Shown here: positions 822-23,610 of the stretch, piece after piece
How positions within the stretch are numbered: position 1 is the stretch's first letter
How the letters are laid out: each line of letters begins with the position of its first letter
Assembly (NCBI RefSeq): GCF_029581195.1
Contig: NZ_CP120737.1
Coordinates: 2,108,001 to 2,172,000 of the forward strand
DNA: 64,000 nt
Source of the DNA: Solwaraspora sp. WMMD791
Lineage (GTDB): Bacteria; Actinomycetota; Actinomycetes; Mycobacteriales; Micromonosporaceae
Direction: 5' to 3'
Notes under the pieces: model-generated
The model's input: the letters and a program-made list of their open reading frames with translations, nothing else
The model's database searches: none
What the model was told of the DNA's origin: nothing
Made by a program: the position numbers and the translations under genes

Positions 822-5466
<4,645 letters not shown>

Positions 5467-22112: not shown

Positions 22113-22193
22113 TCAAGCGGCGGTGGGTGCGCAGGCGTCAGGCGGCGGTTGGTGCGCGGCGGTCGGTGGGTATCAGGCGGCGGCCGGTGGGGC
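22113..22193. repeat. Three imperfect copies of the DUF2470 gene 3' end
   Basis: Imperfect 21-bp units begin at 22113, 22138 and 22173. The last is the genuine end of the DUF2470 gene (stop codon plus final Ala/Pro codons); the other two lie beyond the stop. Each unit begins TCA followed by the AGCGGCGG or GGCGGCGG core. Confidence 0.65.
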
Positions 22194-22925
22194 GCAGCAG
22201 CGTCGGCAGAGCACCGGGTGCAGCAGCCGGGCGAGTTCGGCGCGGTCGCGGACCGGGGCGGGAAAGGCGAGCCGGGCGCGGGGGCCCTGCGGGCCGAGCG
22301 CGACCACGAAGCCGTACCGGTCCATCCGGACGACCTGCGGGTCACCGGCGAGCGACCGGTGGCCGGCGTCGCGCAGCTGCCGACGGATGAACGCGGTCAT
22401 CTCGGTCCGGTGGTGGTCGGCGAGGTCGACGAGCAGCTGCGACTCGATGCCGCCGAGCGGATCGGGTTCGGCGGCGGCGTACTCGTCGGGGTCCACCTCG
22501 GTGGTGACGCCGCACCGCTGCAGCCGGACCTCGGCCACCTCCATCCGGAACATGGTGGCGCCGTGGCCGACGTCGAGCAGGTCGGGGCAGGCGTGCACGT
22601 CGGCGAAGTCCAACGCGGCCATCCGGGCGGCCGCGCCGTCGAGCGGGCTGACCCAACCGGATACCCAGACCTGGCCGTGGGTGGGCGAACCGGCCACCGG
22701 CGGCACGTCGGTCGCCTCCAGTACGACCGCGACGTCGTCGGCGCCGTCGACCGGACGCAGGGCACCGGCGATCGGGTCCGACCCGGTCGCCAGCAGCAGG
22801 ATCCGTCCCATCGGGTCGGTCGCGTGCCGTACGGCGAGTGGGCCGGGCCGGCAGGCGACGTGCGCCGTGCCGGGCAGCCGGCCCGCGGCCAGGGTCCGGG
22901 CGATCTCTGCGGGGCTGGGCTGCAT
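22173..22925 (-). CDS. DUF2470-domain protein, likely iron/haem related
   Basis: A 250-residue protein with an N-terminal split-barrel-like part (residues 1-145) and a C-terminal DUF2470 domain (HHRTEMTAFIRRQL ... VVRMDRYGFVVAL near 170-220). DUF2470 is found attached to haem-utilisation proteins of the HugZ type, but the catalytic role of this version is unknown. The C-terminal CRRCC is Cys-rich. The ATG lies 17 nt from two abutting iron boxes shared with the divergent rpsD-like gene, so iron repression of both is likely. Confidence 0.82.
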   Translation of the reverse strand: MQPSPAEIARTLAAGRLPGTAHVACRPGPLAVRHATDPMGRILLLATGSDPIAGALRPVDGADDVAVVLEATDVPPVAGSPTHGQVWVSGWVSPLDGAAARMAALDFADVHACPDLLDVGHGATMFRMEVAEVRLQRCGVTTEVDPDEYAAAEPDPLGGIESQLLVDLADHHRTEMTAFIRRQLRDAGHRSLAGDPQVVRMDRYGFVVALGPQGPRARLAFPAPVRDRAELARLLHPVLCRRCCAPPAAA

Positions 22926-22941
22926 GACACGGACCTCCGAG

Positions 22942-22980
22942 ATCAGTTAGGCTCACCTTAGTGAGGGCAGGCTAACCTAC
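22942..22980. promoter_or_regulatory. Two abutting iron boxes (DmdR/IdeR type)
   Basis: Two 19-bp sites, 22942-22960 and 22962-22980, have centres exactly 20 bp apart. The second, TGAGGGCAGGCTAACCTAC, matches 15 of 19 positions of the IdeR consensus TTAGGTTAGGCTAACCTAA; the first matches 15 of 19 of the Streptomyces form ending GGCTCACCTAA. They lie between divergent genes, so one bound regulator could control both. Confidence 0.7.
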
Positions 22981-22998
22981 TAATCCGGAGTCGTCCAC

Positions 22999-23610
22999 GT
23001 GAACCACCCACGACCCAAGGCGCGAATCTCCCGCGCCCTCGGCATCCCGCTGACCCGCAAGTGCACCAAGTACTTCGAGCGCCGCCCGTACCCGCCCGGC
23101 GTACACGGCCGCGCCCGACGCAAGCCCTCGGACTACCAGGTCCGGCTGCTGGAGAAGCAGCGGCTGCGCCACCAGTACAACGTCAGCGAGACCCAGCTGC
23201 GCCGCGCCTTCGACGACGCCGTACGGGGTGCCGGCAAGACCGGCGACACGTTGGTCAGCCTGCTGGAACGCCGCCTCGACGCGGTGGTGCACCGGGCCGG
23301 GCTGGCCCGCACCGTCTACCAGGCCCGCCAACTGGTCGCGCACGGCCACTTCAGCGTCGACGGGGTCAAGGTGGACCGGCCGTCCTACCGGCTGCGCCCC
23401 GGCCAGGTGGTCGAAGTCCGCGAGCGCAGCCGCACCAAGCCGCCGTTCCAGCTGGCCGCCGCCGGCGCACACACCGGCGACGGGCCGACCGCGCCGTACC
23501 TGTCGGTCAGCCTGAGCGAGCTGACCGCGACGCTGCTGCGCGAACCGGCCCGAAGCGAAGTGCCGATCATCTGCGACGAGCAGCTCGTGGTCGAGTTCTA
23601 CTCCCGCTGA
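22999..23610 (+). CDS. rpsD: 30S ribosomal protein S4, Cys-poor paralogue type
   Basis: A 203-residue S4 protein that binds 16S rRNA early in small-subunit assembly. The S4 RNA-binding domain is clear (LLERRLDAVVHRAGLARTVYQARQLVAHGHFSVDGVKV) and the C-terminus is the usual VEFYSR type. The N-terminus resembles the Streptomyces stand-alone S4 and lacks the zinc-binding Cys cluster; only one Cys is left there. GTG start with GGAG 8 nt upstream. Stand-alone location outside the ribosomal operons and the iron boxes in front suggest a conditional paralogue rather than the main copy. Confidence 0.92.
   Translation: MNHPRPKARISRALGIPLTRKCTKYFERRPYPPGVHGRARRKPSDYQVRLLEKQRLRHQYNVSETQLRRAFDDAVRGAGKTGDTLVSLLERRLDAVVHRAGLARTVYQARQLVAHGHFSVDGVKVDRPSYRLRPGQVVEVRERSRTKPPFQLAAAGAHTGDGPTAPYLSVSLSELTATLLREPARSEVPIICDEQLVVEFYSR

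Follow-up and report, generated by a model that had tools for sequence, protein, structure and literature searches.

Metal-sparing remodelling of the ribosome is known for zinc. For the ribosomal protein uS4, the metal motif has been given as (CXXC)-(CXXXXC) with an iron-sulfur cluster as its ligand (available part of PMC10450194), and the uS4 protein of Thermus is reported to bind Fe4S4 (available text of PMC6555806). DUF2470 has been described as a haem-binding domain that is often found near iron genes (PMC11014987, in the part available). The accessible text of PMC13258150 presents the M. tuberculosis DUF2470 gene Rv3839 as IdeR-dependent and its protein as acting when nitric oxide stress is combined with low iron. 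For S. griseus, a DUF2470 gene with a DmdR1-like motif appears in the accessible text of PMC8914203. The DmdR1 sites of S. coelicolor are described in PMC12161575, the available main text of which mentions neither rpsD nor SCO1505, and the available part of PMC10502375 holds nothing on S4 and iron. Among the papers listed, only PMC524172 brings S4 or rpsD terms together with IdeR or DtxR terms; the part available places C. diphtheriae rpsD within a predicted secY-to-truA operon and not as a spare paralogue. A sequence-only reading of the locus studied here had taken its arrangement, in which an S4 paralogue and a DUF2470 gene share iron boxes, to be undescribed. Given the published IdeR- and DmdR1-type sites at DUF2470 genes and the haem and iron links of this domain, the DUF2470 half of the arrangement is unsurprising; the claim holds for the S4 half in so far as no paper among the matches listed describes an iron-controlled spare S4 in its title or at the start of its abstract.

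Iron-type boxes and two S4 proteins

The window, by which we mean the whole 64,000-nucleotide stretch of DNA that was analysed, is part of a 6.93-Mb single-contig genome. A gene for a DUF2470 (DRI)-like protein (22173..22925, minus strand, 250 amino acids, ATG start) and a divergent rpsD paralogue for a Cys-poor uS4 (22999..23610, plus strand, 203 amino acids, GTG start) have their starts separated by 73 bp. This gap contains two putative iron boxes, one base apart and with centres 20 bp apart: box 1, proximal to the DUF2470-like gene (22942..22960, ATCAGTTAGGCTCACCTTA), and box 2, proximal to S4 (22962..22980, TGAGGGCAGGCTAACCTAC), the end of which lies 18 bp from the S4 start. Each matches, at 15 of 19 positions, the IdeR/DmdR iron-box consensus TTAGGTTAGSCTMACCTAA, and the abutting pair of 15/19 sites between divergent starts is as the sequence-only reading had reported it. 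Zinc-type sites were scored against a Zur-type consensus of 15 positions. All seven sampled genomes of the genus have a 15-16/19 site at the box 1 position and an identical 15/19 site at the box 2 position.

No other site of at least 14/19 occurs in the 64-kb window, and none reaches 16. First-order Markov sequence gave a mean of 0.017 sites of at least 15 per 64 kb, with no pair of sites within 60 bp in 60 runs, and shuffles of the 73-bp gap gave at least one site of at least 15 in 4 of 20000 cases and two spaced sites never. By these Markov and shuffle controls, a chance origin of the boxes is very unlikely and was rejected. Across the genome, ten other places reach at least 16/19 (none with a reversed control pattern), and the window boxes are weaker than the best iron boxes of the genome. 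A family search of the neighbours of five of these ten stronger places gave iron or siderophore-type matches at three, namely a FecE-like ATPase, an enterobactin-type binding protein and a diaminobutyrate-decarboxylase-like protein, all below curated cut-offs, and no match at the other two. The genome encodes one DtxR-family iron repressor (a single PF02742 match), which passes NCBIfam NF053665 with 307 bits against a cut-off of 290. Two of the features expected of a DtxR/IdeR/DmdR regulon are present: a DtxR-type repressor, and a 19-bp box that exceeds chance and is conserved, at a putative promoter position.

The window S4 is a bacterial uS4 of full length (TIGR01017, 207.6 bits against a cut-off of 177.2, positions 4-200 of 200) and is similar to uS4 chains in ribosome structures (best E 5.4e-51). 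When used as a query it finds two S4 places in the genome, itself and one other. The second rpsD lies in the ribosomal alpha operon between rpsK and rpoA, as anticipated when the locus was first noticed, and encodes a protein that is 42% identical to the window S4 and carries CRRC...CDGPKC, which is the published C+ pattern. The window S4 has a single Cys in the CxxC...CxxxxC region and falls outside the C+ (four-Cys) type to which the alpha-operon copy belongs. The pairing that marks a metal-sparing switch, a primary protein with a metal-type motif and a paralogue without it, is present, with the metal inferred from Thermus. By analogy, the four-Cys S4 of actinobacteria would hold an iron-sulfur cluster, and the metal absent from the window S4 is probably iron-sulfur and not zinc. 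The paralogue had been proposed to be an alternative ribosomal protein of the zinc-free kind for which Zur control is expected; a Cys-poor spare copy is indeed what is found, but the zinc part has to be corrected, since the available parts of PMC6555806 and PMC10450194 assign an iron-sulfur cluster, Fe4S4 in Thermus, to these cysteines. As the cysteines of Thermus uS4 hold Fe4S4, iron control is the expected kind for a Cys-poor S4, and if the missing metal is likely iron-sulfur, the puzzle of why the control is by iron and not by Zur becomes a prediction.

The DUF2470 name is marginal for the window protein, which scores 18.7 bits against PF10615 (cut-off, 22). One of five homologues passes (G130, 28.4 bits), G104 reaches 21.3 and three have no Pfam match at E<=0.05.

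Distribution of the Cys-poor S4 and of the boxes

We examined 150 genomes of Micromonosporaceae, taking at least 60% identity as the mark of a Cys-poor S4 of the window type. Such an S4 occurs in 111 genomes, in 94 together with the four-Cys type and in 17 alone; 37 genomes have only the four-Cys type, and two incomplete genomes with neither (G005, G063) were left out of the family counts. In 60 genes we read the four-Cys motif itself, and elsewhere "four-Cys type" means a match to the genome's own four-Cys S4 from the first residue. About 200 bp upstream of all 111 Cys-poor S4 genes was scanned for boxes of at least 13/19. Among two-copy genomes a box of at least 13 was found in 90 of 94 and of at least 15 in 88 of 94, and where the Cys-poor S4 is the sole S4 a box of at least 13 within 200 bp was found in 0 of 17; related genomes are not independent events, and these counts are not significance tests. 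Among 926 background windows of 200 bp from these loci, 11 scored at least 13 and 3 at least 15. No box of at least 13 lies upstream of any of the 60 four-Cys S4 genes scanned. In a scan of named loci, which overlap in part with the sampled genomes, every Cys-poor S4 of the window type has a box of at least 13 (37 of 37, of which 36 carry Micromonosporaceae genus names and one is Actinomadura), against 0 of 43 other S4 loci; the Actinomadura locus (L184, box 18/19) enters this count only. The abutting pair of boxes is present at 50 of 110 family loci and 7 of 47 loci of the wider class sample.

The unboxed two-copy exceptions in the family are three genomes of genus g23, which are all of its two-copy genomes, and G074. 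In G022, a member of g23, a ferritin-like (PF00210, Dps-like) gene is the divergent neighbour of the Cys-poor S4, which has no iron box (L233 3806-5066); the box is likewise missing in G053 and G089, where the upstream sequence is similar to that of G022. For G091 and G112 we rejected a loss of the four-Cys S4. Both alpha-operon genes show the same single-base difference within a run of G, and the resulting frameshift, which follows the Cys cluster and leaves the four Cys intact, is the only reason why the match began late. The shared difference is likely a sequencing error, and both genomes were counted as two-copy with their sequence unaltered. Extra weak S4-like matches in G008, G012, G015, G140 and G149 stand outside the counts; the one inspected, in G008, is a third, diverged S4-like ORF (L236 about 2496-3062, minus strand) with a best iron-box match of 10/19 in 300 bp upstream.

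The class sample comprised 296 genomes, from which 25 two-copy genomes of six families and 22 single-S4 genomes outside Micromonosporaceae were examined; the two-copy count excludes G270 and G223, which have extra S4 matches. Every one of the 25 two-copy genomes has a box of at least 15 before the Cys-poor S4, with scores of 15-18/19. The observation is real and is conserved well beyond the genus. Among the 22 single-S4 genomes, ten have a box of at least 17/19, one (G258) has a box of 14/19 and 11 have 12 or less. The ten strongly boxed genomes, in which TIGR01017 found no second full-length S4, comprise three of family f14 and seven of f20/g66, a group that we take to be Streptomyces-like; their box lies about 44-48 bp before the sole S4. 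A general law that a sole S4 means no box was therefore rejected, with 10 of 22 single-S4 genomes outside the family strongly boxed.

Which gene the boxes serve

A profile of the window protein served to find DUF2470-like ORFs. Where such an ORF is divergent from S4, 112 of 112 two-copy loci are boxed, against 3 of the 7 two-copy genomes without one (boxed, G014, G017 and G150; unboxed, G022, G053, G089 and G074); DUF2470 adjacency is therefore a better predictor of a box than having two S4 types. At single-copy loci, a box lies near S4 in 10 of 11 cases with an adjacent DUF2470-like ORF and in 1 of 28 without (G258, 14/19). Among loci lacking a DUF2470-like gene, the difference between 3/7 and 1/28 boxed has a Fisher p of 0.019 if the loci are taken as independent. 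In genus g4, the DUF2470-like gene was not found (E<=1e-6) in nine of ten genomes with only the four-Cys S4 (G082, G096, G107, G116, G130, G133, G140, G143, G146 and G149), as if the pair of genes comes and goes together.

We lean, with some reserve, towards the reading that the boxes are operators for both genes and that the Cys-poor uS4 replaces the Fe-S-type uS4 at low iron, thereby sparing iron. A DtxR/IdeR/DmdR-type repressor would bind both abutting boxes and control the DUF2470-like gene, by analogy a haem- or iron-linked partner, together with the Cys-poor uS4. With ample iron, the repressor would occupy the boxes and ribosomes would contain the alpha-operon uS4, in which the CxxC...CxxxxC cluster probably binds Fe4S4. 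Under iron scarcity the repressor would come off and the Cys-poor uS4 would be made, and its replacement of the Fe-S form would spare iron and free ribosome assembly from Fe-S supply. Iron control is very likely for the DUF2470-like gene and, on sequence evidence, likely for S4 in two-copy genomes; that lack of iron derepresses S4, and that one S4 then replaces the other, is what we infer from these parts.

It is possible, although we consider it unlikely, that the boxes serve the DUF2470-like gene only and that S4 is a bystander in the shared gap, transcribed independently of iron. In six of six sampled g33 genomes without a Cys-poor S4, both box positions (13-16/19) are kept before the DUF2470-like gene alone (in one, G104, an ABC-transporter ORF occupies the place of S4), and DUF2470 therefore explains most of the conservation of the box pair. 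The ten single-S4 genomes with a strong box all have a divergent DUF2470-like gene, and published work already includes an IdeR-dependent Rv3839 and a DUF2470 gene with a DmdR1-like motif (available parts of PMC13258150 and PMC8914203). However, the boxes of G014 and G017, as judged from gene order, can serve only S4. The boxes of G014 lie between a same-strand methyltransferase gene and the downstream S4, and no DUF2470-like gene was found in that genome at E<=1e-6. In G017 S4 keeps a 15/19 box and follows directly on a TetR gene of the same orientation. A DUF2470-like gene of this genome, whose product is 49% identical to the window protein and has no Pfam match, is on a different contig and has a separate 17/19 box. 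The upstream neighbour of the boxed S4 in G150 is another divergent ORF. Also against a bystander role, occupancy of an S4-proximal box 18 bp from the S4 start in a 73-bp gap should touch S4 transcription, and the box is missing within 200 bp in all 17 family genomes with a sole Cys-poor S4, lying 442 bp away in G030. The proposed tie of the S4 paralogue to iron limitation together with DUF2470 is thus strengthened by boxes that can serve only S4 and weakened by DUF2470-like genes that keep both boxes without it.

In a tree, G014, which has both S4 types and the boxes, groups with G013 and g12 (100/97; 2 of 15 g12 genomes in the tree), which have the Cys-poor S4 only and lack both the four-Cys S4 and the box. 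In G014 itself the boxed Cys-poor S4 lies immediately ahead of the alpha operon, with the four-Cys S4 about 2 kb further downstream (L235 4284-7559). In G030 the gene order is as in the window and the sole S4 is Cys-poor, with a TTG start; the box lies at 58 bp from the DUF2470-like gene, and S4, at 442 bp, seems from this spacing to have moved out of the reach of the box. Both the G014 group and G030 are as expected if iron repression was relieved when the spare took over as the sole S4. The ten boxed single-copy genomes are at odds with such relief unless there is a second S4 promoter or repression is partial. An essential sole S4 should not tolerate tight iron repression, yet ten are boxed; a strict on/off switch therefore cannot be universal, and these ten genomes are the strongest evidence against a simple switch.

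A further reading, to which we give rather little credence, is that the S4 paralogue is iron-regulated for some other reason, for instance as an S4 that withstands damage to Fe-S clusters by oxidative or nitrosative stress, or as one that alters translation in stressed cells. Sole boxed S4 genes would suit graded tuning better than a swap, the unboxed Cys-poor S4 of G022 faces a Dps-like gene, and the M. tuberculosis DUF2470 protein works under combined nitric oxide and low-iron stress (PMC13258150, available text); on the other hand, it is just the Fe-S-type cluster that is missing from the paralogue, which co-occurs with a four-Cys S4 in 94 of 111 genomes of the family sample, as expected for replacement. 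Control of the paralogue by zinc through Zur is highly improbable and was rejected, because, although mycobacterial Cys-free alternative ribosomal proteins are under zinc control (PMC8866557) and C- isoforms in general have been treated as zinc-starvation forms (PMC10450194, both in the parts available), a search for a better Zur match gave at best 7/15 in the 73-bp gap, which does not qualify as a Zur box, and no more than 10/15 at any of the 25 two-copy loci outside the family, where iron boxes reach 15-18/19, which bears out the original view that the boxes are iron-type and not zinc-type. Elsewhere in the genome (L353, G000:C1:3465000-3469000), a Cys-poor L28 (TIGR00009) and an MRF/ZigA-like GTPase (below cut-offs) flank a weak Zur-like site with 3 mismatches of 15 (a backward control gave 2 matches per strand against 18), and this locus is perhaps a zinc-type counterpart in the same genome.

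Comparison with described systems

Whether our favoured reading, replacement of an Fe-S-type uS4 at low iron, extends across the Actinomycetes seems to us evenly balanced; if so, an Fe-S-free uS4 controlled by IdeR/DmdR would replace the Fe4S4-type protein throughout, and loss of the four-Cys form would have left the spare as the sole S4 in some lineages. If the reading is true, the Fe4S4 cluster of uS4 gains physiological meaning outside thermophiles, ribosome composition is tied to Fe-S supply, and ribosome remodelling has an iron version as the counterpart of the Zur-controlled zinc-free ribosomal proteins.

Like the S. griseus motif group, the locus has a DUF2470-like gene of an actinomycete with a motif of the DmdR1 type, but no S4 partner is named there and rpsD is absent from the available text (PMC8914203). 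As with M. tuberculosis rv3839-rv3840, an IdeR-type site lies upstream of a DUF2470-like gene, a gene that in M. tuberculosis is induced by iron limitation; rv3839, however, adjoins rv3840 and bfrB, and the word "ribosomal" is absent from the available text of PMC13258150. The CxxC...CxxxxC motif of Thermus uS4 (PMC6555806, available part) is also found in the alpha-operon S4 of this genome, whereas the window S4 lacks it and Fe-S in the actinobacterial four-Cys form is putative. With the mycobacterial AltRP operon, as described in the available text of PMC8866557, the locus has in common a Cys-free or Cys-poor paralogue of a metal-binding ribosomal protein, metal-responsive control and a primary copy elsewhere. 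The regulator of that operon is Zur, whereas here the boxes are of the DtxR/IdeR/DmdR type, the protein is uS4, the cluster of which is Fe4S4 in Thermus, and the partner is a DUF2470-like gene.
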